Below are positions 2,810 to 27,802 of a stretch of DNA of 30,660 bases, one piece after another; the first letter of the stretch is position 1, and each line of letters begins with the position of its first letter. This stretch comes from a virus. Both the position numbers and the translations under genes were made by a program. The stretch spans positions 1 through 30,660 of the IMG/VR virus record IMGVR_UViG_3300042298_000506; one strand, written 5' to 3'. Below the pieces are notes generated by a model. The model worked only from the letters and a program-made list of their open reading frames with translations, was not told where the DNA came from and did not search any database.

Positions 2810-3267
2810 AGCGCCGCCCGTATAAGCGCAGCCTTCTGTTCCCACTCAGCCATTCTTACCGTGTCACCTTCACGAATCGCCCGGATACTGGCAAGGTCGA
2901 TTTCGCGGAGCTTGGCTTTTGCCTCTGCTGCGATCTGTTCCGGTGTCGGCTCAGGATACGGAATCTGATTCGCTTCGACTTGCGCGATCAGGTCGGCATA
3001 CTCCGCCGCATCTGCGCCGAGGTCTGCCCTTAGCATGTCCATCTGCACGTCGGCGTAGCTGTGGCACTTGACTTGTACTTCTGTAACCGTGCCGGGGACT
3101 ATGTGCGCTGGAATGACTTTGCCGAGAGTGATATTGCCTTCAACGTCTGTGGTATCCGGCAGCAGTTCCTCCGCTACCTCTGTATCAGGAGCGATGGTTC
3201 TATCCACCCAAGTAGCTTCGACGCTGTTGGTGTCTGGATAGTGTTTGACTTGTTTTAGGATGATCAT
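2806..3267 (-). CDS. Tail-fibre-linked protein, possible fibre chaperone
   Basis: This 153-aa protein begins inside the end of the second tail fibre gene (ATGA at 3264-3267) with AAGGAG 8 bases upstream, so it is clearly coupled to the fibre. The N-terminal half is beta-rich (residues 1-70). The C-terminal half is acidic and helical (YADVQMDMLRADLGADAAEY, then PEPTPEQIAAEAKAKLREID and MAEWEQKAALIRAAL). A small protein with a helical C terminus right after a fibre gene is the standard place for a tail fibre assembly protein. I see no certain family motif, so that role is inferred from position and composition. Confidence 0.65.
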   Translation of the reverse strand: MIILKQVKHYPDTNSVEATWVDRTIAPDTEVAEELLPDTTDVEGNITLGKVIPAHIVPGTVTEVQVKCHSYADVQMDMLRADLGADAAEYADLIAQVEANQIPYPEPTPEQIAAEAKAKLREIDLASIRAIREGDTVRMAEWEQKAALIRAAL

Positions 3268-5996
3268 GACGTTGCTCCTTTTATAATTGTGAAATTCACA
3301 ACGGGCGTATCAGATGCCGTTCCGACAGCAGAATAGAAAGTCACATCGAAACCAGTATATGCAACTATTTTCGACACGAACATGATGTAAGTATTCGTTG
3401 AGCTAGATACGGTTAGGAGAACGGTGTCCGGCGCGGCGATAAGCGTGTTTGACACTCTGAATGTGGCAGGCGTAGCACTTCCTGCTGCCGTGAACATCGT
3501 GATCTGGCCTGTTGGCTTTGGTATGGCAGGGGTTGCCGTAACTCTTGATGTTGCCTGTATTGTTGTAGCCCCTGCGCCTGTGCCGTAGCCGAGTCCGGTC
3601 GTTGGGCTTTGCACTCCAACAAAGTCAGCTTGAATACGGAACGCGTTCGTGCCAGTAGTTGGTTCTGCCCCCGCTGTTTGCCCAACTTGGAATTGAAACG
3701 CGCCAAGTACTCCAACGTTGTACATAGAACATTGTTTGTTCTGCGTTGCGTGGGAATTACTTAGAACGAAGGCAACAGACGATGTTGCCTGATTCGTTGT
3801 CAGTTGGATTCGTGCATTTACCGATGCGGCCGTACTTGTTAGGTGGAGAGCTTGAGCACCTGCTGAGTTGCCACCTGTTATCTGACCAACGCTATCAATC
3901 CGCATACTCTCTACGTATGCTTGATTATCAGCAGAAGCTGTGGGAACTCTGGCAAACAACATGCCCCCAGCGTTATCTGTCGTTATGATAGAACCGGCAA
4001 TACCTCTAGTGCGGAAGGTATTGTTGGTCGTTCCCGCCTCGCAGCTCAACGCGATAAAGGGTTGACCAGTACCAACAGAACAACCTAAGTTGCTCCCATA
4101 TCCAGCGGTATTGGGGTGCCCCCACTCGAAATTATTTCCCCCGGCTCTATAGGAGAACTTAGCTCCAGACTGAGCAGAAGCGTACGAACCATATGCGGTA
4201 ATAACCCCACTCGCATCAATCCGCATCTTTTCGCTACCAGCTGTGACAACGCTGATGCCATTAGGCACAGTGGCGTGAGTTGCACCATAGACAGTAATCC
4301 CGGTGGTGCCACCAGAATTAACCAATGACCCGAAGCCTGTCGCAGTGCCCAGTGCCACGGTTGATGCAGCATTGCTCAGTGTGAGCGCACCTGTAGCTAT
4401 CGAGACATTCCCACTTGAATCAATCCGCATTTTCTCCGTGGGAGTGGCCGAGGCAGATGTGTAGAAAGTCAAGAAGGAGTTGCCCGCAGCAATAACCGCG
4501 CACTCTCCAGTGGAGCCGTTTGATTGCAGCATCAGCGAATTAGTGCCATCACTCGCTGCCGCGTTGATTACTGAATTGTTTCTTTGCCTGAAGTAACCAC
4601 CAAAGTTGTCCACCCTAAACCCGGAAGTCGGTGCAACACCAATCCCCACATTCCCACTTGAATCAATCCGCATCCGTTCGGTATTGGTCGTTCCAAAGGT
4701 AAGCGGGTAAGCGCCGATTGTGTTGAGCGAAACAACGTCAGCGCCAGCAAATAACTCTGCGTTGCTCGGGTTTGTGGTAGTCCGCTCAATCCTCAAACCA
4801 GTAGAGGCAGAGGCTGTCTGAATCTCCATACCCAATGCTAGGTTTGTAAAACCGGGCGTGGTTCCAATCCCCACATTCCCACTGGAATCAATCCGCATCT
4901 TCTCTGTTCCATCCACCTTGAACAGGAGAAGACTACTCGCCCCCACGTTAGTTGGGTCGGCCTCTATTGCGATTGACCGGGAAGTATTGCTCAGGTTTTC
5001 AATGCCGCCAGAATATGCTGTCGAACCAGTAGCGCCTACACGAACTGTACTGGTAGCGAACACTGTTCCAGTGACTTGCAGTTCGCCGACAGAAGCGGTT
5101 GGATTGTTACCTATCCCTACATTCCCACTCGAATCAATCCGCATCTTCTCGGTAAGGCCAACACCATTTGTTGCGGTTGAGAACTGCAAATAGCCATTCG
5201 CGTTATTGTCAGTGGCGTTCGATTTGCGCCCAGAAATCTTGCCAAAAGTCCCCATCGTGGTGCCGGTGTAAGCCCCACCAAGACTGATTGATCCGCCTAT
5301 ATCAGCAGCAACGGCATCAGTAACATGCACCATCAAGTTAGCAGAACCGAAAGTCGTACTGGCTATGCTCGCGGCTTTTTGCGTTACATTTCCACTCGTA
5401 TCAATCCGCATCTTTTCGGTTGCGGCTGTATAAAACAGCATTGCGTTGGAGGTGTGCTGGTAGGACAGATACCCCATGTAAGTATCTGTCGTAGTCGTTC
5501 CATCAGCGAAAGCAAGCCCACCAACGCCTGTTGTTCCGGTATAAATTGTCACCCCGGCTGAACCCGAGCCAGACCCTACTACTAAATCTGCTACGCCATT
5601 CGCGGCGTCAATGGTTAATGCTGATGCAGTACCAATCCCTACATTCCCGCTCGTATCAATCCGCATCCGCTCCGTGCCGCCAGTGCTGACAGCGACGGTA
5701 TCTGCAGCTGGGAACCATACTCCAGTGTTGGGATCGCCTGTGGGGATGATAGCGGGGAGGAGGGCTGTACCTGCTTGGACGGTAGTAACACCAGTTGCAC
5801 TCAGCGTCCCAGTGACAGCCGCCCCCGTCGCTGTTAGCGATAACGTCTTCACATTACCAGCATAAAAGTCCATCACGTTATCAGCAGACTCTACTAAATA
5901 CGTATTACCACCACCTGCCACCCCATCTAAGTAGATCTTAGATAGGGCAGCTACGGCTATGGCATTTTGGATAACTCTAAGAGGTGTCTTAGCCAT
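3264..5996 (-). CDS. Second long tail fibre / receptor-binding fibre
   Basis: This 910-aa protein is low-complexity, Gly/Ser/Thr-rich and has no enzyme motif. Residues 20-64 carry a YLDG...NTYLVESADNVMDFYAG module also found three times in the neighbouring fibre. From about residue 88 it has the phrase GVWFPAADTVAVSTGGTERM and then eight copies of an [ST]E[KR]MRIDSSGNVxIG motif (one reads VES), spaced 40 to 130 residues apart. This is a well-known environmental-phage fibre repeat, likely one beta-hairpin or trimer rung per copy. The N terminus overlaps the upstream fibre by 8 bases and lacks the PLTNAEL domain that the upstream fibre has. It may therefore attach to that fibre rather than to the tail. 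The last 100 residues are beta-rich and may form the tip. Confidence 0.85.
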   Translation of the reverse strand: MAKTPLRVIQNAIAVAALSKIYLDGVAGGGNTYLVESADNVMDFYAGNVKTLSLTATGAAVTGTLSATGVTTVQAGTALLPAIIPTGDPNTGVWFPAADTVAVSTGGTERMRIDTSGNVGIGTASALTIDAANGVADLVVGSGSGSAGVTIYTGTTGVGGLAFADGTTTTDTYMGYLSYQHTSNAMLFYTAATEKMRIDTSGNVTQKAASIASTTFGSANLMVHVTDAVAADIGGSISLGGAYTGTTMGTFGKISGRKSNATDNNANGYLQFSTATNGVGLTEKMRIDSSGNVGIGNNPTASVGELQVTGTVFATSTVRVGATGSTAYSGGIENLSNTSRSIAIEADPTNVGASSLLLFKVDGTEKMRIDSSGNVGIGTTPGFTNLALGMEIQTASASTGLRIERTTTNPSNAELFAGADVVSLNTIGAYPLTFGTTNTERMRIDSSGNVGIGVAPTSGFRVDNFGGYFRQRNNSVINAAASDGTNSLMLQSNGSTGECAVIAAGNSFLTFYTSASATPTEKMRIDSSGNVSIATGALTLSNAASTVALGTATGFGSLVNSGGTTGITVYGATHATVPNGISVVTAGSEKMRIDASGVITAYGSYASAQSGAKFSYRAGGNNFEWGHPNTAGYGSNLGCSVGTGQPFIALSCEAGTTNNTFRTRGIAGSIITTDNAGGMLFARVPTASADNQAYVESMRIDSVGQITGGNSAGAQALHLTSTAASVNARIQLTTNQATSSVAFVLSNSHATQNKQCSMYNVGVLGAFQFQVGQTAGAEPTTGTNAFRIQADFVGVQSPTTGLGYGTGAGATTIQATSRVTATPAIPKPTGQITMFTAAGSATPATFRVSNTLIAAPDTVLLTVSSSTNTYIMFVSKIVAYTGFDVTFYSAVGTASDTPVVNFTIIKGATS
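3884..5675 (-). repeat. Eight dispersed MRIDSSGNV-type repeats in the second fibre
   Basis: Eight copies encode [TSV]E[KRS]MRID[ST]xG. At DNA level they share the plus-strand core TCAATCCGCAT, often with CCCACTTGAA or a close variant before it. The last two copies (ASGVITAYG and SVGQITGG versions) are the most diverged. Spacing is irregular, which suggests rungs separated by variable inserts rather than a simple tandem array. Confidence 0.85.
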
Positions 5997-14583: not shown

Positions 14584-17500
14584 TTAGTCTCCAATAGCCA
14601 TCCAGTTAAGCGTGCCTGTAGCGAGCACTTGCGCAGTCGCCAATGCTACCGTGTAGTCTACAAACTTGAACGTGTTTGCAGGGGTCGTGCTGTTAGGCAC
14701 AGGACGCCTAATAGTTATCAGAGCGTCCGCAGTCACCGTACCGGTCACGTATCCCACACCTTTGTACAGGGCACCGTAGGTGAACACGTACTCAGTCAAC
14801 TCCATCGTCCAGTAGTTCGGATTGTATGTACCAGTGACCACGGTAGCAACATTATAGACACGCGTGTTTGATTGCAATTCCTCAAATATAGCTGTACCGT
14901 CAGCTAGATCACCATAGAAATTATTAGATGCCCTTAGGAAGTAATTACCGCCTGAGTATATCTTAGATACGTTCCATGTTTCAGCCTCACCACCGCCCTT
15001 TCTAAGCAGAATAGAACAGATGTTATTGGCATTCTCCTGGTAAGGGGTAGCTGACAAACTAGGCGTACCGAATCCGAATGTTGCTGAATAGGCTACACTA
15101 TAGATGCTCCAGCCGGATGGTGCGGAGTATGCGGACATTGCGGGGGATAATGTAGTGCTAGAACTGAATCCACTATAGGGGTACGGAATGTCTGTAGGTG
15201 AACCAGATATAGGCCCACTACTAACAGCTTGTGTTGCGTACTCATATGTGAGTGAACCAAATAGACTAGCGCTCTCGTCGGACGCTGTGTACGCGATGAA
15301 GAACTCATATGTGTTCGCACCAGCAGGAAATGTGAACGACACCGTATCTGTTACGATACCTGTAGTAGCTCCTATCGATTTAACCTTCGGTGTTGAGTAT
15401 GAATATGCACTACCGCTACCTGATACTCGATACCCTATACGCCAGCTTACAGTTCGGTAGATGTATTGCGATAATCCATTTCCACGGTATGACACTAGCT
15501 CGACATTGCAGGTAACACTAGCTGTATTAGCAGGCGTCGTACGCGTCGGTGTTGAAGAGTAAGTGTTGCTCGATATAGAACCAGATGTCTGATTCAACAC
15601 TGTATTTACCGTACTAGCCGACAGTGTCAGATATGCTATGGCTGTAAAACGCCATTGCATACTACCAAGCGATGTTTCCGCGATATTTTGCGCTTCACAG
15701 ACAATAGACTGGCCCTGCGCGACATATGCAGGATCAAAGAACTTTAACACGAAAGGTGAAACAAGAATTTTCGGTTGTGTCTTCCAGTAGCCCGGCAGTG
15801 TCACCAAATCGCCACTAGCAGCTGTACCAGTCTCATATCTCCGGAGGTAAGCATACTCTACTGCGTAACCTAATGCAGGCACGTAGCGATACAGCCTTAG
15901 ATTACCACTATCTAGCCTTGAGTAATCGCCGGCTGTACTGTAACCAGCTTGTGAGTAACTCTCAATGTAACCGTCGCCAAACAGCTTCAACTTGCCACCT
16001 ACCTGTATGTACTCTGTTGCCTGTAGAGTTCCTGCAAGAATCTTATCTGCTGTTAGACTCTCGATCATTGCATTCGTTATCGCACCGTTAGCGACAGCCA
16101 GTGAGCCTACGGCAATAGCACCAATCGCCAGCTTATCGCCTCCGACCGCGCCATCTGCAAGGTTAGTTGCCTCAATAATCAGCGGGTTAAGGTCGACACC
16201 ATTGATCTTCCCTGTCGTTGCATCAATACCATTCGTGCCACCAAAAGCGTTTACAGACAAGTAACCATCATTGGAGATGTTCTTGAACCATAGCTTTAGC
16301 ACCTTACCTAATGTTGACGGCATGGAGGCTTGCGTACCATTGAACCGATACATCTCAACTGCATCACCGAACACTGGCGTAGCACCCTCAGCTCCGTAAA
16401 CTACAGTGAAGCCATGTCCATGTCCCTCGGAGTACGAAGGTGCAGGTGATACAGCAATGAACACCGTACTGAAGCCTGTCGTTACTGTCACACCGACGGC
16501 ACCTGGTGGTGGTGTGGTATCTCGAACAGCTCCCACGTTCAATGCGAGGACATCGATATTATGATACACATCTCGACCGTTATAGGTGGCCTTCACAGTG
16601 AAGAAACCTACATTGCCTGTGAGCGTGGTTACGTTGTAGTAGCCCTTGTTGTCGGTATTGTTTATTGAAGCATCACAACTCGTCTCTGAATGTATTACGA
16701 ATGAAGTGCTTGCTGTAACGTTTGTGTCACCGCTACGTATAGATAGATAACCGTTGGCATTCGCGTAGCCATAGTTCACTCCTAGGTTATCCTGCAACAC
16801 CGTCAGTGAGTTCTTCGTTGATAGCGTATCAAGTACAGCCGGTTGTATCAACGCAGGTGTTTCCCATGTGCCAGCAGCAATGATACCTGTGCTATTTTGC
16901 GCAGAGATGATCGTAATTGAACGATACAAGTCTGTCGTACCTGCAGGAATCCCTGCTGACCATACAGTAGGCAACCCTGTCGGCAACGTAGCAAACTGAA
17001 ACGTGTCAAAGTTGTAAGTACCACCGACTGGAGTAGTAGGTGTTGTCAATGATCGTGCATACACGTTTAACGGCAGTGAGGCGTAATAGTCAGTATCCGC
17101 TGGCGTCACAGCTGCCGAGATTGCAGCCCATGAGGAGAACGGGCCAAGCTTCCCAAAGAGCATCGGTATGACAACAAAGGTACGTGTCGCAGCAGCCATT
17201 GACGGCAACAGAAAGTGATCACCATGGGCAACACCCAGCTCATCCATACCAGATGTTATCGTCAGTTCGTTTACTGGCACAGAGGTGTATCGTATGGAAT
17301 AGCCAGACACTCGGGAGTCATTAGAAACAACCCACGATAACGTACCACTAGACAGTGCCATGTTGCTACTTGCGAGTAGCGTCAGAGACGTCACTGCTGG
17401 TACAGCACTGTCATAGATGTTACGTTGCGGTATTACCTCGTTGTCCTTAGCATTCCACTCCAGATTCCTTGCATCGAACTTAGAAGCCTCAACAATGACA

Positions 17501-19266
17501 TTACCTTCAGCATTGATAGTCACGCTATTAACCATCAACAGCTCACCAGGTATCTCCAGGAAATCACTTTCCAGCCTCATGAAGTCTGTCGGCTCTAATC
17601 CACCATATCTATGTGACAGCGTTATGTTGTACGAGGTTGCAGAACGCGAGCTCCGTACAATGGATTCTGCTTTTGCGAGCGCATGGTAATAGTCAACAAT
17701 ACCATCTCCGAAAATAGACGACTCTAATTCCACTCCGTTGTCTAAGCCGATATAGGTTCGGTATACGTCATTTACTCCGTCTACGAGTGCCCAGGCAGTT
17801 GTGTCCACCGAAGGGTCCACAGCATAGACTCGCGACTCACCAAACCTAAGCTGATAGCTGTTACCACCATAGGTTACATAATCACTTCGGTTGTATGCGG
17901 TTCCACTAGCCCAGGCTCCTCTTTCGACACCAGCACCAGGAACAAAATTTGTCTTCGGAGGCCAACTTGCCGAGTCCTCTGAGAAGTCCTTCGCCTCATT
18001 ACGAAAGCGTACAGTAGCAAAGTTGTAGCGTGTGCTAGCGTTTGGCCATGTTACCTTGAATTCATCTCGCTTGATGATGTCATCGTCAGTAATGGTAGCG
18101 GCCAGAGCTGTCACCCAATTAGCAGTGTTGAGTGCTGTATTGTTACCATTGATCAAAGATCGATAGACAGTAACGTCACTAGTGCCAGAGTTCGTCTGTA
18201 CAACATCATTCTTAGCGTATGTCACCAGTGCGTTGTACACATATGGATACTGCAACAGAAGCTTATACTTACCTGTTGTCCATATCAACTCAGAGGCATC
18301 CATCGTATCTAGAATTCTCTCGATGTTGTCTACTATCTTGGCATCCGAAAACATTGTGATGTTAGCTTCGTAAAGTGGAAGATCACGCGTGAGAATAGGC
18401 GTATTTCGTTTGCGCCATATTTTACCTTCAGCAGAGACACCGGACTGTACGATCTTGTCGCAGATTACCTTCGCGTTGTAGAAGCTCTCCAGATCGATTT
18501 CGTCGTATGATAATCCTTTTCCATACGCTGTGTTCGTCAGGTAGTCCAGTAAGACCAACGCTGGGTTGTTCGAATAGCTACGAGCACCTACAGTGTAAAC
18601 ACCAAGGCTCTCAGTAAGTGTTGCTACCTTCAATCCTTCGATGTAGAACTGTGCTGTTGGCACACCTCCGAACTGCGGATCGTCTCGATTAAGCCTGAAT
18701 ACACCAGAAGCGAACGCGAATCCAGGAAATAACGACGTACCAAGCACACTCGGATAATTAGCTGCAGCAATCGAATCGTTCTCATTACCGGAGTAATGCA
18801 CGTCGAGTCTTAGACCGCCGGCACCACCTGTATTGACATAGTCAGCTGAAGGTGGACCCTTTGTGGCAAATCGACTGGTATTGTAATCTTGCTTATCTAC
18901 GTCAGCCCATATGCAACTATTTATCGGAGCCATCGATATGACTTGCTGAACCGTCAGGTATTCGTGCTTTTTACCGCCGATACTTCCTGATAGCGCGTTT
19001 ACGAGCTGCTTCTGCGAGTTGGGAGTTGTGTATGTAAAGCTACTGAGAGTATTGTGGTACACACGTATACCACCTACTAGACAGCGGCCATAGACGATGT
19101 TAGCTGGACTGGCTTCACCTTCAGCAACGATCTCAATACCTTTAGCGCGGTCTGCACGTTCAAACGCCTCTTGCTCAGCCTTTTTCTGTCGCTCTTTTGC
19201 CTTCTTCTGTTGTTGATGTTGTACAACCATACTAACAATAAAAGAGAATACCGAAAACCAACCCAT
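14584..19266 (-). CDS. gpJ-like tail tip / host-specificity protein
   Basis: This 1,560-aa protein matches the layout of lambda-type tip attachment protein J. Residues 1-16 are hydrophobic and 17-42 are a charged coiled coil. The hub-type start follows (ASPANIVYGRCLVGGIRVYH) with LNRDDPQFGGVPTAQFYIEG near 192-211. Domains of the Phage-tail_3 type extend to about 600. Two carbohydrate-binding-like inserts interrupt this part (about 342-388 and 451-494). A fibronectin-III-like stretch follows (about 620-720). Near 1040-1120 the sequence has the coil-like NLADGAVGGDKLAIGAIAVG and ADKILAGTLQATEYIQ segment seen in J homologues. The C-terminal third is Ser/Thr/Tyr-rich beta sequence, probably the receptor-contacting tip. 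It closes the tail tube and binds the host. It is coupled to the upstream minor tail gene by TAATG. Confidence 0.88.
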   Translation of the reverse strand: MGWFSVFSFIVSMVVQHQQQKKAKERQKKAEQEAFERADRAKGIEIVAEGEASPANIVYGRCLVGGIRVYHNTLSSFTYTTPNSQKQLVNALSGSIGGKKHEYLTVQQVISMAPINSCIWADVDKQDYNTSRFATKGPPSADYVNTGGAGGLRLDVHYSGNENDSIAAANYPSVLGTSLFPGFAFASGVFRLNRDDPQFGGVPTAQFYIEGLKVATLTESLGVYTVGARSYSNNPALVLLDYLTNTAYGKGLSYDEIDLESFYNAKVICDKIVQSGVSAEGKIWRKRNTPILTRDLPLYEANITMFSDAKIVDNIERILDTMDASELIWTTGKYKLLLQYPYVYNALVTYAKNDVVQTNSGTSDVTVYRSLINGNNTALNTANWVTALAATITDDDIIKRDEFKVTWPNASTRYNFATVRFRNEAKDFSEDSASWPPKTNFVPGAGVERGAWASGTAYNRSDYVTYGGNSYQLRFGESRVYAVDPSVDTTAWALVDGVNDVYRTYIGLDNGVELESSIFGDGIVDYYHALAKAESIVRSSRSATSYNITLSHRYGGLEPTDFMRLESDFLEIPGELLMVNSVTINAEGNVIVEASKFDARNLEWNAKDNEVIPQRNIYDSAVPAVTSLTLLASSNMALSSGTLSWVVSNDSRVSGYSIRYTSVPVNELTITSGMDELGVAHGDHFLLPSMAAATRTFVVIPMLFGKLGPFSSWAAISAAVTPADTDYYASLPLNVYARSLTTPTTPVGGTYNFDTFQFATLPTGLPTVWSAGIPAGTTDLYRSITIISAQNSTGIIAAGTWETPALIQPAVLDTLSTKNSLTVLQDNLGVNYGYANANGYLSIRSGDTNVTASTSFVIHSETSCDASINNTDNKGYYNVTTLTGNVGFFTVKATYNGRDVYHNIDVLALNVGAVRDTTPPPGAVGVTVTTGFSTVFIAVSPAPSYSEGHGHGFTVVYGAEGATPVFGDAVEMYRFNGTQASMPSTLGKVLKLWFKNISNDGYLSVNAFGGTNGIDATTGKINGVDLNPLIIEATNLADGAVGGDKLAIGAIAVGSLAVANGAITNAMIESLTADKILAGTLQATEYIQVGGKLKLFGDGYIESYSQAGYSTAGDYSRLDSGNLRLYRYVPALGYAVEYAYLRRYETGTAASGDLVTLPGYWKTQPKILVSPFVLKFFDPAYVAQGQSIVCEAQNIAETSLGSMQWRFTAIAYLTLSASTVNTVLNQTSGSISSNTYSSTPTRTTPANTASVTCNVELVSYRGNGLSQYIYRTVSWRIGYRVSGSGSAYSYSTPKVKSIGATTGIVTDTVSFTFPAGANTYEFFIAYTASDESASLFGSLTYEYATQAVSSGPISGSPTDIPYPYSGFSSSTTLSPAMSAYSAPSGWSIYSVAYSATFGFGTPSLSATPYQENANNICSILLRKGGGEAETWNVSKIYSGGNYFLRASNNFYGDLADGTAIFEELQSNTRVYNVATVVTGTYNPNYWTMELTEYVFTYGALYKGVGYVTGTVTADALITIRRPVPNSTTPANTFKFVDYTVALATAQVLATGTLNWMAIGD

Positions 19267-20536: not shown

Positions 20537-23500
20537 TTAGTTGCGATGTCCATTCTCACGATTGTTCATGTTGACACCTGTCGTGATCTGTGGTAACATC
20601 GAGATTATCTCTTTACGCGTCTGGCGAGAGATATCACCTGTGATTTTGATATTGACGATTTGCTGATTCCCGCGAGCAGTATCACTGAAAGCGGCAGGTC
20701 CGGGTACTACAACCCCATCTGACACCATACCACCTTCAGCAAAGCCGTGGAAATTACCGTCGTTGATTGCCATCAGCATGTTTCTGAAACGCTTAGTGGA
20801 TGCGGCATTAACAACGAACTCACCGTTCGATAACATCGCAGGGATACTATCCGAGGTTCCATTACCTGGGCCTACGACACGACCCCCTGATGCAAATAGA
20901 CTAGGGATGAAGTCGAACACACTTGAGACATCGAAGTCAGAGAACATGTCAGAGATGCCACTAAACAAGCCACCGGCACCACCCTCTTTGCCACTGAACA
21001 AACCGCTTATCCCATTAAATGCCGAAGTCAGCGTCGTCTTCAGGAAGTCCCAACCCTGCTCTAACACCGAGGACAGACCATCCCATGCATTCGTCAGTGT
21101 GGTCGACAGTGAAGAATCACTCGTTGCTAATGTTGCAGCCGTTTCACTGTTTGCGGTCTCAAGTAGCGTCTTGGTGTTAACACCTGCATCAGCAAGAACA
21201 GTAGCTGTGGCTGTGTTACCCGCTGCAGCTAGATTAGCCTTCGCTGTATTATCCGTCGAGAAAATATTGGAAAGTTTCTCATTGAACCAGCCGAATATAC
21301 CCTTCTGCTCTTGATTAGCATCCTTAGCTGCATCACCAGACTTGGCAGCTGATTTTCCATCCAGACTAAAACCCTTGCCAGAGAGGAAATTGCCAGTCTT
21401 GCTACCTAGGTCAGATACACCGCCGATGATGACATCATTCACTATCTTGTCGACAATACCACCGGCAAACTTAGTCGCCATCGAGGAGAAGAAAGAGTCG
21501 ATGATCTTGCTGGATAACGAGTCGGCCCATTGCTCGATCATTCCCTTGAAGGTGATCTTACGCTTGGCAAAGGCAGACATCGACGTCTCCACTTCCTTGA
21601 AGAATGCCTGCGAGAAGGGCTTGGCCATATTTCGGCCCTCAAAGGACGAACTCATCATCGACAGCAGAGTAACTTCATTGCTGAACACTTCAGTATACTG
21701 CTTTAGGAACTCACCAGCAGCATCTTTAGCGAGAGATGCATTCACACGAACACCTTGTGTTGAACCTGTCTTCTCCAGTTCAGCGTAACGTTCGTATGTC
21801 TCCATCATATCAAGTATCTTGGCATACGCAGTTTTAGGAACGGCTGCACTTATATCGGCCAATTGCTTGCCAGGAAAGAAGTCACCCAGAGCGCCTTTGT
21901 AGTCCATCTCTTTCTTAACTTCAGGCGTAAGGTTCTTGAAAATCTCAGCTACAGCACCTTGTTGCCCGCTTATGTTGTTCACAAGCTTGGCTCTGGATAT
22001 TTCAGACAGATTAGTGGCACCTAGTGACTTCGTATTAAGTGCTATCTCATCAAGGGCCTTTCCGACAGTCGTCAGTTGACCAGCTTGTACCAGCTTGGTG
22101 ACATCAGCAATTGTTACTGGATTGGCCAGTGCACCAGATGCATTGATGTACTTCGCAACACCTTCAAAGTCGCCTATCTTCTCGATACCTGTAGGGTTTC
22201 CAGCTACCATGTCACGGATCATTTTGCTAATATCGACACCTGTGTTAGCCTTGATCCATGCATTGATGCCTTCAACGCCTTTCATCATCGCAGCCTTGAA
22301 ATCCGCAAGTACTGATGTGGATTTTTCTGTCTCAACAGTTTGATCTGCAGTGGCAACAGATTGACCGACGATAGCGCCCTCCGCCTTCGATATAACACTC
22401 ACCATATTCTTAGAGTAGTTTGCATCTGTGGCGTAACCACCTTTTTGTACAGCCGTGGCGTACTCGCCTAAGTCCTTCCTACCACGCGCACCATCGTATC
22501 TCTTGCTGGACATTACACGTTCGAAGTCCTTAAAGAAATCGTCAATGGTTGCATACTTAACGTAGTTGCCGCCTTCACTGGCAGGGCGTGGAGAGCCTTT
22601 AGAGCCGTTCGGATTGCCCTCAGTATATGTAATCCCACCGAAGTTGTTATTCAGCTTCGCAACATTAGATGTACCGCCCTGGCTCTCATAGTACAACTGC
22701 TTCAACAAAAGGTCAGAATCGATGCCCAACGAAGTAGATATACGTTCTGCTTGTGGCTTGTACTTCTTTATGAAGCCTCCTAGATTGAATCCAGGCACAC
22801 CACCGTTAAGCGCCTCTAAGAACGGTCTGAATTGTGCAGCAGCCTTGGCGTTTACGACAAACTCACCGTTTGACAGCATCGCAGGGATACTATCAGACGT
22901 CGCGGAGCCAAGTCCGAATACAGATCCTCCTGTAGAGAAACCTGGAATACCTCTTGCCTTGTTCGTCATGAAGTAATTCAAGGTCGTCTCTAGATCGTCA
23001 CGTCTACCTGTCTGGCTTTCTGCGATATCAACGGCAGGGGCAATCATCTTGCTCTTGTCGAACTTAGCGAAGCCTTTCAGTAGATCAAAGTTCGTCGTAC
23101 TGAACTTACCAGTTAGGTCTTGAAACGTCAATGCACCAGAGGAGTTATTGATCTTAGCATCATCAGCTATATCTATGAGGCCTCTCGCTCTGGTCAACGC
23201 ATCGTGATCGTTTAGCATGCTCCTTGCAAGGTATGAGCGCGCTGCTATGGCTAAGGTCGCTTCACCCGCCGGACTCTTAATAGCCGCATTCTCGAAAGCC
23301 CACTTAGATGCTTGTGCCTCAAACAGAAAACGTGAATCAAACATGTCCTGGTAATTGGCGAAACGAGCCATATACTGCTGGTTCAATGCAGAACCTATTG
23401 CGTTCGCTTCCTTATACTCGTTACTGCGCAAGTAAGGCTCGCCGACTTCTCTGTAACGCTTCAAGGCCCTCGCAGAGTGCTCTTCAAGTTGCATACGTAA

Positions 23501-26500
23501 CGGCAATATGTCGCTACGTACCGTTTCCAAGAAAGCATTATCAGAATGGATATGTCCAATCTCATGCAATGACACGTAGTACTCGCCGTATCCGTTCTCT
23601 GGAGTGATAGCGGGGACATTAAGTGTTTTACTTGCTGGATCAGTACGCGCTGCAACAGCATCTACATACTTAAGTTGATAGCCGACCAGTCCTGCTTTAG
23701 TGGCGACATCTTGTTGCATGGCAGCAACTATTGCAGGTGAGACACCATTGTTGATAGCCTCGAGCAACTGCATGTTGTCCTTAGCAGCTGCGGCCTTAAC
23801 GACGAATTCACCGTTGGACACCTTAGCGTTGATACTGTCAGATGTCCCCGTTCCTGGACCACGAACCTTACCACCACCTGAGAAGGCTGTATAAGGATAC
23901 GGTTCAGCTTCACCATCTTGTTGCTCACCACGCTGCAGGAGAATGTTCTTGGTTGTGTCGAAGAAATTTGTTATACTCTTTCCGACAGACATACTCCAAT
24001 CTAGGAATCCTTTTTCCATTCTAGCAGCAGTAGCATCAGGTAGCAGCTTAAAGTCGCGTCCACCATCAGGCAGCATCTCTACCAGCAGCGGTTTCTCCAA
24101 ACCCATTGTGCCTAGGATGGCCTTCTCCACATGGACACCTACTTGCTTGCCCATACGTTCAGCTTGCTCGAAGTCACCTTGCGCTATCGATACGGCAGTT
24201 GCACCGATACCCATTGCGGCTGAGGCAGCATGCTGTCCAGGTGTCGTCGGTTCAACATCAGGACTGTCACCCATTAGCCACGGGAACTCTTTCTTCAGAT
24301 AATCTGTCAGCGCCTTAGCACCAAGATCGAGGCCTTCTTTTATTGCCTTAGGGATCTCATCAGTAACAATGAACTTAAGTGTGTTCCAGGTCTCAGGCTC
24401 TTTGAAGAACAACCAACCCGCGATCAAAGCTGCAGTGATGATTGCGCCTATAGGCGTGAACACAGCACCGAGAACCGCACCGAACAACAAGGTGAAGGCA
24501 GATACCGCTGTAGCACCAGTGAGCTGACCTAAAATGCCAGCACCGATTGTGACAGCTATCTTCTGATGCTCAGGTAAGTCAGACTGTCGTGCAAACTCAG
24601 AACCAGCTGTGAAGCCTGCGTAGCCACCTAAGAAGCCACCTGCGCTTGCTAACGAGTTCTTCAGACCATCCTTGAACTGAGTGGAAGCATCACTAATGCT
24701 CTTACGCAGTGTGTCACGTGTAGCTGAAAGCTGTTGTATCTGTGGGCCAAGCATTGCCACTTGCGACGTAGCGTTTGTAACTTGGCGTTGCGAGAATGCA
24801 GCGCCCTCTTTGATGGTCTTGTTAAGCGACAACAATTCCTTCTGGATAGGAGCTACAGCGCGTTGCGCGTCATTAGCAGTGGATAGCCTAGAGATGGGCA
24901 AGTCATTGACTAGCTTCTGTACCTGTGCCTGTTCACTTAACCGCTTCGTATTCAGTGCCACCACTGCCGTCGATCTGTCGAATGTCTTGGTAGCGTCCTT
25001 AACTTGCTTGTTAAGATAGCTCAGCTCAAGTTGTTTACCGACCGATTTTCCCATCGCAGTTGGCGAAGTAATGACATCGACAAGAGCACCGCCAGCGGCC
25101 TTTCTATTGTCCGAGGAAAACAAGAACGCCAGAGCTGCCAGCTTAAGTGTAAACTCAGCGATACCCTTCACGACGGCTATAAGCTTGTCACCCATGCTGT
25201 CAGCAGTCTCTAGGTACGTTGATATTGGACCGAAAGCGCCACTACCAAAGATTGCTTCTTTGATCGACCTGCCAATATCCAACGTAGTGCGAATGCCTTT
25301 AACGAGTGCGTTGACGAGCGTCCCTTCATCGACGTTCTTCGCCAACATCGTGCCGGTCAGCCCTACACCACTCACAGCAGCAGCTTTAAGTAGGAAGCCA
25401 CGCATGGGGGCCATCGATGAGAAGATAACAGTAGGTATCAAAAGCATCGCGCCTAAGATAGCAGTCAGCGTTGCACCAATAGCTAAAGTGGCAACCACCT
25501 GATCTTTGTTGTCGAACGCATTTATGATGTCATGCATGAACGGTCTATCGACTTCTTGTTTGTGAGGACCGAATGGGACTTGCGCGCCGCCTTTATCGTC
25601 AGGGATACCTACGATCTGCCGTACTAACTTGCCACGATCAGTGCTTTGTAACCAGTTTAGGCCACTAGCTACATCCGACTGTTTAGCGATGATACGGCCT
25701 AATGACTTGAAGAATCTAGGCACAAACGAGATGAAATCGTTGTACATGTCACCGATAGTAGAGAGGGCGTCGCTAGTGTGAGACGCAACAGAGCGACCGA
25801 GTCCATTAACAAAGCTGAGAAGCCTCTCCACATAACTTTCTTCGGCGGCTTCTATATTACTGGCTACCAGACCCTTAGATGCTATCCCTGTAGACAGCGC
25901 CTTGCCGATTTCAGTGCTAGCACTCTTGTTCATAGAACCGAGCAAATCAAATGGCTTAGCCTTAGCACCGTCACCTAGGTGATTCTTCCTGAACTCGGGG
26001 AATGTACCTTTAGAGTTCTTCTGGAGGTTGTTGAGATATTCTACGGTGTCGAAACCAGGCATTTCAACTTTAGGCGGCTCCTTTACAGCCTCCTTTATAT
26101 CCTTCAAAATCTTAACCTGCTTGACACTTTCGTCGAGTATCTCGACATTAGTTTCTGGATAGATAATAGGGGCCAGCCATTCCTTACGCCAAGCTTCTAT
26201 TTCTGCCTCTGTGAAACCTGTATCACTCTTATTAGGAGCTGTAGTTTTCTCATCTGGATAGATAAGTGGTTTCAGCCATTGATCCTGCCAGTCTTTGACC
26301 TCCTGCTTGGAGAAGTCACTCCAGGGGTTCGTGGAAGGTGCTTTGTAGTTGGCATCAGTCGGCTCAGGTAGAGCTTTCGGTGTTGGTTTCAACCACTCAG
26401 CTGCCCACGCCTCGTCTGCAGTTTGGGTACGAGCCTTAGATGTCGTAGATGCGGCAGGCTTATCAGCAATACCTAAGACCTGCTTCCAGTACTTAGCTGC

Positions 26501-27802
26501 ATCAGTGAACACCGTCTCGAACATCGATGTGAATGTGACCAGCAAGGGTTTCACTGCAGTGGTCATCTTACCTATCCAGCTGATGACACCCTCTACCAAA
26601 TCAGGGATCCACGAGTTGCCAATGACTCTGTCATACAGCCAGGCGAAGGCAGCTTCAATTCGTTGTACTGTGCTGATGACCTGTTTAGCAGACGCCTCGA
26701 AACCACCGAATGTGAACTTCATGTCGAAGCTCAGCATGTCCCCCAACATCTTAGCAATCTTCTGGAATGCGGCACCTGCCGTATCAGGTAGATCAGAAAA
26801 GAACACCAATAATGGCATCAGCGCTACGATAGCCTTAACCTTCAGGTAGGCCATGTCTGTGATGAAGCGAGTAGCGAATCCTGTGATGGACACCGCTAGC
26901 TTATCAATGAATATGGCGATAGGATTCGATCCACCGAACAGCTGCAAGACAGCCTGCATAATCACTGTGAATGCATTACCAAGGTTCTTCAGAGAGCCAC
27001 CTATGGTAACGAATCGACTCATGTTCTTGTTGATCTCGTCCGTTTGTGACAGAATACCTGCGAACACACGATTCGCTGATAGTGTACCTTCCTCACCCAT
27101 CAGCCGTAGTTGGCCGATTGATACGTTCATACTCTTGGCAATCACTGTAGCCAATTCAGGTATGTTCTCGAGGATAGACCGAAGTTCGTCACCCTGCAGT
27201 CTGCCAGAGCTTAACGCTTGACCAAGCTGCAGAATACCAGCAGAGGCTTGCGCAGCTTCTACGCCGGAGGACTTTATGATGCGAGCAACGTTAGCTGTCA
27301 CTTGCAGTGCGTCCTTGCTAGATGCGCCGAAGTTCTCAGAGGCACGCCGCAGTTTGACATACAAATCAGCCACATCAGTGATCGCTATGCTTGCATCCAT
27401 AGCCACAGCGGTTATCTCTTTGAATCGTTCAGCCTGCGCGCCTGTGCTTTTCTCCACGAGACGGAGCTTAGCATTCAGTGTGGCTACCTTGTCGGACAAT
27501 GCTGCTACACCAACAGTTGCTACTGCGATAGCCGCGAATTCGCCAATAGAGCGTGTAGCTCGCATCAAGCTATCTGACATGCTGTTGGCTGACTTACCGA
27601 TATCCTTTACCGAATCAGACAACCTGCCAAGCTTGGCCGTATTAGCCCCTGAGCCTACCTTATCAGTGGCCTTGGTGATAGCCTCAAGTTTCTCAGTTGT
27701 CTTGTCAGAGGCAGTACCGATTCCTGTAACAGCCGTGACTAATCTCTGTATGTCACTTTCGGCTTTGGCGGCATTAGTTTTTACTTCTAGTTCAATTGCC
27801 AT
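20537..27802 (-). CDS. Tape measure protein with peptidase-like and glucosaminidase domains
   Basis: This 2,421-aa protein sets tail length and is ejected with the DNA. Residues 1-270 match a tape-measure N-terminal domain (ARIIKSSGVEAAQASAGILQ then RSILENIPELATVIAKSM and MGEEGTLSANRVFAGIL). Residues 463-552 hold three W-x3-WL repeats. Hydrophobic segments near 767-797 and 1083-1132 could enter the host membrane. Residues about 1350-1610 hold a zinc-peptidase-like part with HEIGH at 1413-1417 and a candidate third ligand E1495 in FEAQASKWAFE. Residues 1678-1808 resemble GH73 glucosaminidase, with candidate catalytic E1706 in YYESQ, then NNNFGGI and YATDANYSKNM. TSDSI...SNGEFVV repeats lie near 1320, 1635 and 2316. 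A strong GGAGGT ribosome site precedes the ATG. At about 0.15 nm per residue the tail would be near 360 nm, less if the domains fold inside the count. Confidence 0.92.
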   Translation of the reverse strand: MAIELEVKTNAAKAESDIQRLVTAVTGIGTASDKTTEKLEAITKATDKVGSGANTAKLGRLSDSVKDIGKSANSMSDSLMRATRSIGEFAAIAVATVGVAALSDKVATLNAKLRLVEKSTGAQAERFKEITAVAMDASIAITDVADLYVKLRRASENFGASSKDALQVTANVARIIKSSGVEAAQASAGILQLGQALSSGRLQGDELRSILENIPELATVIAKSMNVSIGQLRLMGEEGTLSANRVFAGILSQTDEINKNMSRFVTIGGSLKNLGNAFTVIMQAVLQLFGGSNPIAIFIDKLAVSITGFATRFITDMAYLKVKAIVALMPLLVFFSDLPDTAGAAFQKIAKMLGDMLSFDMKFTFGGFEASAKQVISTVQRIEAAFAWLYDRVIGNSWIPDLVEGVISWIGKMTTAVKPLLVTFTSMFETVFTDAAKYWKQVLGIADKPAASTTSKARTQTADEAWAAEWLKPTPKALPEPTDANYKAPSTNPWSDFSKQEVKDWQDQWLKPLIYPDEKTTAPNKSDTGFTEAEIEAWRKEWLAPIIYPETNVEILDESVKQVKILKDIKEAVKEPPKVEMPGFDTVEYLNNLQKNSKGTFPEFRKNHLGDGAKAKPFDLLGSMNKSASTEIGKALSTGIASKGLVASNIEAAEESYVERLLSFVNGLGRSVASHTSDALSTIGDMYNDFISFVPRFFKSLGRIIAKQSDVASGLNWLQSTDRGKLVRQIVGIPDDKGGAQVPFGPHKQEVDRPFMHDIINAFDNKDQVVATLAIGATLTAILGAMLLIPTVIFSSMAPMRGFLLKAAAVSGVGLTGTMLAKNVDEGTLVNALVKGIRTTLDIGRSIKEAIFGSGAFGPISTYLETADSMGDKLIAVVKGIAEFTLKLAALAFLFSSDNRKAAGGALVDVITSPTAMGKSVGKQLELSYLNKQVKDATKTFDRSTAVVALNTKRLSEQAQVQKLVNDLPISRLSTANDAQRAVAPIQKELLSLNKTIKEGAAFSQRQVTNATSQVAMLGPQIQQLSATRDTLRKSISDASTQFKDGLKNSLASAGGFLGGYAGFTAGSEFARQSDLPEHQKIAVTIGAGILGQLTGATAVSAFTLLFGAVLGAVFTPIGAIITAALIAGWLFFKEPETWNTLKFIVTDEIPKAIKEGLDLGAKALTDYLKKEFPWLMGDSPDVEPTTPGQHAASAAMGIGATAVSIAQGDFEQAERMGKQVGVHVEKAILGTMGLEKPLLVEMLPDGGRDFKLLPDATAARMEKGFLDWSMSVGKSITNFFDTTKNILLQRGEQQDGEAEPYPYTAFSGGGKVRGPGTGTSDSINAKVSNGEFVVKAAAAKDNMQLLEAINNGVSPAIVAAMQQDVATKAGLVGYQLKYVDAVAARTDPASKTLNVPAITPENGYGEYYVSLHEIGHIHSDNAFLETVRSDILPLRMQLEEHSARALKRYREVGEPYLRSNEYKEANAIGSALNQQYMARFANYQDMFDSRFLFEAQASKWAFENAAIKSPAGEATLAIAARSYLARSMLNDHDALTRARGLIDIADDAKINNSSGALTFQDLTGKFSTTNFDLLKGFAKFDKSKMIAPAVDIAESQTGRRDDLETTLNYFMTNKARGIPGFSTGGSVFGLGSATSDSIPAMLSNGEFVVNAKAAAQFRPFLEALNGGVPGFNLGGFIKKYKPQAERISTSLGIDSDLLLKQLYYESQGGTSNVAKLNNNFGGITYTEGNPNGSKGSPRPASEGGNYVKYATIDDFFKDFERVMSSKRYDGARGRKDLGEYATAVQKGGYATDANYSKNMVSVISKAEGAIVGQSVATADQTVETEKSTSVLADFKAAMMKGVEGINAWIKANTGVDISKMIRDMVAGNPTGIEKIGDFEGVAKYINASGALANPVTIADVTKLVQAGQLTTVGKALDEIALNTKSLGATNLSEISRAKLVNNISGQQGAVAEIFKNLTPEVKKEMDYKGALGDFFPGKQLADISAAVPKTAYAKILDMMETYERYAELEKTGSTQGVRVNASLAKDAAGEFLKQYTEVFSNEVTLLSMMSSSFEGRNMAKPFSQAFFKEVETSMSAFAKRKITFKGMIEQWADSLSSKIIDSFFSSMATKFAGGIVDKIVNDVIIGGVSDLGSKTGNFLSGKGFSLDGKSAAKSGDAAKDANQEQKGIFGWFNEKLSNIFSTDNTAKANLAAAGNTATATVLADAGVNTKTLLETANSETAATLATSDSSLSTTLTNAWDGLSSVLEQGWDFLKTTLTSAFNGISGLFSGKEGGAGGLFSGISDMFSDFDVSSVFDFIPSLFASGGRVVGPGNGTSDSIPAMLSNGEFVVNAASTKRFRNMLMAINDGNFHGFAEGGMVSDGVVVPGPAAFSDTARGNQQIVNIKITGDISRQTRKEIISMLPQITTGVNMNNRENGHRN
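20756..20896 (-). repeat. Tape measure repeat copy 3 (residues 2303-2349)
   Basis: The copy reads FASGGRVVGPGNGTSDSI then PAMLSNGEFVVNAASTKRF and MLMAINDG. It is the C-terminal copy and is nearly identical in its core to copy 2 (TSDSIPAMLSNGEFVVNA). It lies after the coiled and amphipathic C-terminal part, about 70 residues from the protein end. Confidence 0.85.
22379..22771 (-). other. GH73-like glucosaminidase segment in the tape measure protein
   Basis: Residues about 1678-1808 read KKYKPQAERISTSLGIDSDL, then LLKQLYYESQGG with candidate catalytic Glu 1706, NNNFGGIT, VKYATIDDFFKDFERVM, KRYDGA, YATAVQKGGYATDANYSKNM. This order (substrate-side Glu, N-x-FGI/GI motif, Y-x-S/T-x-x-D helix, final YATDxxYxxxM) is that of the glucosaminidase family. 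It would open the peptidoglycan during DNA entry. Confidence 0.8.
22799..22939 (-). repeat. Tape measure repeat copy 2 (residues 1622-1668)
   Basis: The copy reads FSTGGSVFGLGSATSDSI then PAMLSNGEFVVNAKAAAQF and FLEALNGG. It lies between the peptidase-like part and the GH73-like part. Confidence 0.85.
23744..23887 (-). repeat. Tape measure repeat copy 1 (residues 1306-1353)
   Basis: The copy reads AFSGGGKVRGPGTGTSDSI then NAKVSNGEFVVKAAAAKDN and LLEAINNG. It immediately precedes the peptidase-like part and is the most diverged of the three copies (INAKV for IPAML). Confidence 0.85.
26147..26416 (-). repeat. Three degenerate Trp repeats in the tape measure protein (residues 463-552)
   Basis: The units are DEAWAAEWLKP, VKDWQDQWLKPLIYPDE and EIEAWRKEWLAPIIYPE, with first Trp residues at 466, 505 and 538. 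Pro/Thr/Ser-rich linkers join them. At DNA level two copies still share the stretch TCTGGATAGATAA, so the duplication is not very old. Confidence 0.75.

Follow-up and report, generated by a model that had tools for sequence, protein, structure and literature searches.

A hook-like repeat in phage tape measure proteins and the enzyme segments that follow it

Analyses of a 30,660-nucleotide stretch of viral DNA (IMG/VR record IMGVR_UViG_3300042298_000506, positions 1 to 30,660; hereafter, the window) indicated that its tape measure protein (TMP) carries three copies of a repeat, the first followed by a segment with a HEIGH motif and the second by a GH73 domain. The repeat was found in the TMPs of many other phages, and hydrolase families are enriched about six-fold directly after its copies. 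Judged by sequence, it is the same element as the "hook" predicted in the TMP of phage JBD30. The reading that we favor, to which we assign a probability of about 0.58, is that a hook and the enzyme following it form a module, whose post-hook part is exchanged at the edge of the hook or inside it, mainly between phages.

Three repeat copies in the window tape measure protein

The TMP gene and its parts are listed below, with residue numbers referring to the protein.

20537..27802, minus strand: tape measure protein gene, 2421 residues (open frame)
26954..27508, minus strand: TMP_3 N-terminal domain, residues 99-283 (Pfam)
23744..23884, minus strand: repeat (hook) copy 1, residues 1307-1353 (repeat hidden Markov model, HMM)
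22940..23743, minus strand: inter-repeat segment with HEIGH motif, residues 1354-1621, a putative zinc-metallopeptidase-like domain homologous to the slot in TMP L030 (motif and L030 comparison)
22799..22939, minus strand: repeat (hook) copy 2, residues 1622-1668 (repeat HMM)
22382..22756, minus strand: GH73 / Glucosaminidase domain, residues 1683-1807 (Pfam PF01832)
20756..20896, minus strand: repeat (hook) copy 3, residues 2303-2349, in the canonical C-terminal position (repeat HMM)
20540..20755, minus strand: C-terminal tail, residues 2350-2421, a linker and predicted terminal helix of tail-tip plug type (AlphaFold model mdc5e3cf3a5ff, mean predicted local distance difference test score, pLDDT, 69)

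The N terminus of the protein matched Pfam TMP_3 (PF20155; E 6.6e-45; score 153.6 bits, cut-off 41) and the NCBIfam model tape_meas_nterm (E 8e-18), and there were matches to many PHROG tape measure families. The lambda TMP C-terminal domain, Tape_meas_lam_C (PF09718), had no match on the protein at E up to 1. The same gene was present at 100% on several further contigs.

An initial annotation of this DNA had drawn attention to positions 22379-23887 (minus strand; TMP residues 1306-1808), describing one repeat copy ahead of the HEIGH segment, a second closing it, a GH73-like segment right after the second and a third copy near the C terminus. The repeat HMM and Pfam confirmed this layout. The repeat is about 48 residues long, with an E-value of about 1e-22 to 1e-25 for each copy; the GH73 domain begins 14 residues past copy 2, and copy 3 lies 72 residues from the C terminus. 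No further convincing copy was present in any frame of the window. The three copies are 59-66% identical to each other in protein and 62-65% in DNA over 132 nucleotides, which is far above chance, with an identity of about 45-50% at synonymous sites. Their longest exact DNA match is 8 nucleotides for copies 1 and 2 and for copies 1 and 3, and 18 nucleotides for copies 2 and 3.

The two segments that the initial annotation had called enzymes differ in how they were identified. The GH73 assignment came from Pfam (E 8.9e-17; score 62.3 bits, cut-off 30.2), FlgJ relatives were found in the PDB (E 4.5e-5), and the domain is likely a cell-wall-cutting segment. About 495 residues separate it from copy 3, and thus only one of its borders has a repeat. 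The HEIGH motif itself is at residues 1413-1417 (window 23552-23566), 60 residues past copy 1. The segment containing it had no Pfam relative above cut-off, no PDB match and no match in INPHARED, so that it is a putative enzyme based on its motif and on its homologue in L030. The latter, at L030 residues 1440-1699, was supported by a z of about 9-10 (5.9 once the motif was masked); the HEXXH-type motif HEIGH occurs at matching places in both TMPs, and the homology extends past the motif.

In the AlphaFold model of copy 3 and the tail, which is of modest confidence, a beta pair and two helices are followed by a linker and then by a helix at the end of the protein (pLDDT about 57-66 for the strand/loop part, 73-85 for the helices; predicted template modelling score only 0.32). 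The model of copy 1 through the GH73 domain, made with 4 sequences, was poor (pLDDT 37). The GC fraction was 0.48 in the HEIGH and GH73 parts, 0.47 in the following stretch and 0.49 in the N-terminal part, and the base composition of the gene gave no sign of recent cassette entry.

A HEIGH segment also follows copy 1 of another TMP, L198 (contig also of L024), and its link to the window segment was not significant (z 1.9). In L198 a twin-arginine-like stretch, MSRRNFLKLSGVAVA, is located at residues of about 3034-3048, directly past copy 1 and before the HEIGH segment, an arrangement that looks like the capture of an exported protein along with its signal; its match to Pfam TAT_signal (E 0.004) is below cut-off.

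Enzymes and exchange junctions beside the repeat

The repeat has no model in Pfam or NCBIfam, and a text search for its motif letters found no paper. Profile searches of IMG/VR and a search of INPHARED (1312 records) identified it in 171 non-redundant TMPs, 133 with a single copy and 38 with two to four, in keeping with the statement in the initial annotation that such repeats occur in other phage TMPs. Multi-copy TMPs were about twice as long as single-copy ones (2009 versus 1050 residues), and the median distance from the last copy to the C terminus was 83 and 81 residues, respectively. Based on this constant distance, copy 3 of the window TMP is the canonical copy and copies 1 and 2 are extra. 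The repeat profile matched the JBD30 TMP (8rk3) at residues 1019-1066 (E 5.2e-12), a stretch that includes the hook, which has been predicted to anchor in the hub after the C terminus is ejected (PMC11445458). In addition, two giant TMPs have a divergent copy (GGSAWVPGxGxGDKVPAMLEPGEYVVN) that is conserved between them (L085 residues 378-424, L094 residues 668-713) and is located thousands of residues ahead of the C terminus.

The position of enzymes was analysed in a paired test in which hydrolase families were scored in 200-residue intervals after, before and away from repeats. Hydrolases were present in 14-17 of the 84 intervals after a repeat, a range that reflects the possible overlap of hydrolase families in one interval, versus 2 of 69 before a repeat and 2 of 73 away from repeats (14 intervals against the pooled controls, Fisher p 5e-4). 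Within inter-repeat segments, enzyme starts were strongly shifted toward the preceding repeat (p 1e-4), and in 7 of 8 mapped cases the enzyme began 9-37 residues past a copy. The Pfam domains concerned were diverse: a pesticin-type lysozyme 9 residues past a copy (L034 and L046), GH108 at 20 (L053), GH23/SLT at 21 (L030), M23 at 34 (L094), part of an NlpC/P60 domain at 37 (L063) and CHAP at 118 (L057). In L231 a lysozyme domain follows copy 1.

Comparisons of homologous TMPs showed that the enzymes are exchanged. The window TMP and L030 are homologous in the backbone (residues 780-1110, z 58), not homologous in the 200 residues preceding copy 1 (z 0.3) nor past copy 2 (z -0.4), where the former has GH73 and the latter GH23 (SLT), and homologous again in the C-terminal block and tail (z 12 and 25). 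This pattern indicates that the HEIGH segment and its two copies act as a unit, with the enzyme past copy 2 having been replaced. L031 and L034 are homologous before copy 1 (z 15) and past copy 2 (z 3.9), and between the copies they are not (z 1.1): the slot holds a pesticin-type lysozyme in L034 and L046 and a GH19-like segment in L031, the latter assigned by motif, with weak PDB endolysin matches and no Pfam match. Different enzymes between two copies in homologues come close to what the initial annotation had predicted. The support it had proposed, a homologue with one repeat copy and without the enzyme at the matching place, was not found for the window TMP. The relatives found were near-identical contigs and the distant L030, the sole TMP sharing its backbone, and therefore there is no empty-site relative in its own family.

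Recent exchange is visible at the DNA level in mycobacteriophages with a single repeat. The TMP genes of TM4 and BoostSeason are about 95-98% identical up to the 3' end of the repeat, the next approximately 550 nucleotides are unrelated, and homology then returns without a repeat. The replaced part is mt3 in TM4 and an NlpC/P60-like segment in BoostSeason; in this backbone, mt3 was confined to TM4 and HMC1 among the close relatives identified. Similarly, the replaced segment begins 12-14 residues past the repeat in the pairs Urkel/Amohnition and Vetrix/Archie. In the pair L048/L247 the switch is in the middle of the repeat, with 99.3% identity over 307 nucleotides on one side only. In L053/L096 it is at the first codons of the repeat, to the left of which are a GH108 segment and a LysM-like end, respectively, the LysM-like match being weak (E 0.04) and the L096 sequence being cut off 30 residues ahead of the repeat. 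With a sharp junction defined as at least 92% identity on one side and less than 70% on the other, 4 of 21 unique junctions were no more than 10 residues from a repeat (1.26 expected, p 0.03) and 7 were no more than 15 residues from one (1.45 expected, p 0.0004), these distance limits having been picked afterwards. The repeat core was also conserved as DNA, being 92-98% identical over 45-55 nucleotides between groups of mycobacteriophages with TMPs that have diverged elsewhere.

Several junctions and conserved stretches of other kinds were observed in these alignments. The L100 TMP has a second DNA-conserved island outside the repeat, at residues of about 610-630 (93-97% over 38-61 nucleotides to Gordonia phage TMPs), and differs from L112 by an insertion of about 106 residues at residue 641, approximately 125 residues upstream of the repeat, a tail-length-type indel with no repeat there. 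L134 and L151, from two prophages named from one bacterial genome (contigs 2887800589_000005 and _000001), have TMP DNA that is 99% identical over residues 1-693, 72% identical past residue 693, and then 94% identical from directly before the repeat to the end.

A proposed exchange of hook-enzyme modules and its alternatives

We propose that the hook is a small element, predicted to consist of a beta pair and two helices, that is single in most phages, about 80 residues ahead of the C terminus, and would anchor the TMP in the tail-tip hub following ejection of its extreme C-terminal end. In the window phage it would have been multiplied, giving an order of hook 1 and HEIGH segment, hook 2 and GH73, and hook 3 and terminal plug. 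An enzyme just C-terminal of a hook would lie beyond the anchor, toward the exit, and could reach peptidoglycan while the TMP is exiting the tail, perhaps once the TMP has been cleaved near the hook, as happens in T5 pb2 after R1127. Recombination would for the most part join genes from two separate phages; between copies within one gene it would be rare. The junctions would have arisen through homologous recombination within the hook DNA, not through selection among junctions formed at random. A wider proposal, which we offer tentatively as the less probable case, is that the hook is both a protein anchor at the tail tip and a DNA target for recombination, with phages of many hosts trading hook-enzyme modules, stringing several together in a single TMP and delivering their different wall activities in order during its exit from the tail.

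The initial annotation had suggested instead that enzyme cassettes enter and leave TMP genes by recombination between repeats, which we read as recombination of the direct repeats of one gene with each other, with one repeat left upon loss of the cassette. Its idea that enzymes are exchanged at the repeat was upheld; the part played by pairs of repeats was mostly not, as usually only the left border has a repeat, swaps of the TM4 type involve one copy, and the window copies, diverged as they are, share exact matches of no more than 8-18 nucleotides. A better fit is recombination of different phages with each other, in the hook or next to it, because one copy suffices. There are cases that do resemble recombination within a gene: copies 1 and 2 of L198, which flank its HEIGH segment, are 86% identical over 175 nucleotides, confined to the repeat, and copies in L170 are 92% identical over 169 nucleotides. 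Synonymous identity within genes was also slightly raised (0.51 versus 0.44 expected, p 4e-5), and the HEIGH segment common to the window TMP and L030 lies between copies 1 and 2, with the sequence just beyond each of them being non-homologous. Against these, orthologous copies have remained distinct in L043/L084 and mostly so in cluster L, and the family of the window TMP, whose backbone is common only to L030, provided no empty site. We consider recombination between a gene's own repeats improbable as the general route. Synonymous sites between copies within genes were mostly near saturation. Concerted evolution as proof of repeat-repeat recombination was rejected for most TMPs and was kept for L198 and L170, whose copies were recently duplicated or converted.

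A serious rival is that the repeat is only a functional boundary, with junctions arising anywhere and selection keeping those that join intact domains, so that the hook edge is a tolerated seam. The likely job of the repeat as a tail-tip hook could alone make it a natural border. Consistent with this, the repeat is conserved in enzyme-free TMPs and has a predicted anchoring role, the linkers on either side of it are strongly variable, and the copies within L031 and L034 are closer to each other than to their orthologues in amino acids and not clearly so at synonymous sites, as expected from shared function. What argues for recombination in the hook DNA is that crossovers occur inside the repeat, such as that of L048/L247, which are not domain seams, and that the repeat core is so conserved in DNA across mycobacteriophage groups, although other conserved TMP islands exist too. 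We judge this rival to be unlikely, and yet more credible than recombination between a gene's own repeats. That enzymes and repeats simply both occur in the C-terminal half, their adjacency being incidental, would account for enzymes without a nearby repeat; it is very hard to reconcile with the few hydrolases before the same repeats and with the shift of enzyme starts toward the preceding repeat, and we give it little weight indeed.

Several findings weigh against the module exchange that we favor. Enzyme borders are not always at repeats: the SLT domains of L037 and L092, the kind of case that the initial annotation had named as refuting its idea, are hundreds of residues from any copy, and in Gordonia TMPs SLT is directly before copy 2, not after it. 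Right-hand enzyme borders are rarely at a repeat, as illustrated by the gap after GH73, and thus the description of the repeat as a boundary holds for the left border, where hydrolases are enriched and begin shortly after a copy, and usually not for the right. In comparisons of distant homologues, an apparent border could result from linkers that vary on either side of a conserved element, and the junction test comprised few junctions. The role of the hook is a published prediction rather than an experiment; Foldseek with the hook model gave no match, nor did the repeat HMM match T5 pb2.

Related systems and further observations

Enzymes in TMPs (since TM4 and T5), TMP mosaicism and the single predicted hook were already known. 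In the papers found, all from the open-licence literature and so not proof of novelty, multiple hooks bordering exchangeable enzyme modules were not described, and there was no explanation of where TMP enzymes insert or how they are exchanged.

TM4 gp17 resembles the window TMP in having a peptidoglycan-hydrolysing segment soon past the repeat (repeat at residues 704-749; W853 in mt3). It differs in having one copy and in its enzyme: the PDB relatives of mt3 are LysM-protein chains, and neither GH73 nor the HEIGH segment is related to it. Piuri and Hatfull studied the hydrolase motif mt3 and found its deletion to be viable, with shorter tails and lowered infection of stationary cells (PMC1796659); the word "repeat" was not found in that paper. 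RefSeq labels the TMP simply "endolysin" in TM4 (L110; NC_003387, TM4_gp17) and other cluster K records, probably because of the enzyme segment. The JBD30 TMP, gp46, has the same repeat by sequence (hook residues 1022-1066) in the canonical C-terminal place, and cleavage at the end of its hook has been speculated (PMC11445458). Unlike the window TMP, it has just one copy, and no peptidase motif was identified at that place. T5 pb2 is alike in plan and not in sequence: its cleavage separates a hydrophobic stretch from a muralytic metallopeptidase segment, and the residues at the newly made C terminus become lodged in the hub (PMC10038345).

Douge gp16 and other cluster L TMPs (Vetrix, Archie, LeBron) have two copies flanking a segment with an NlpC/P60-like part, which, in contrast to the window arrangement, precedes copy 2; the Douge TMP is resolved only at residues 1658-1699. 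The NlpC/P60-like segment is thus before copy 2 in cluster L (L106, L115) and after the single copy in cluster K (L099-L102).

Swaps at hook edges would be a simple way for phages to alter how the bacterial wall is breached, and an unnamed C-terminal repeat of TMPs gains a testable role. A conserved landmark beside the enzymes also provides a rule for finding them, including those without a Pfam name, such as the HEIGH segment. As TM4 and BoostSeason represent one swap in a near-identical backbone, the effect of the enzyme on infection is directly comparable in laboratory phages.

The window contains two other large tail genes, one at 14584-19266 whose product of 1560 residues is a relative of the J-like central tail fibre, and one at 3264-5996 encoding a tail fibre of 910 residues.

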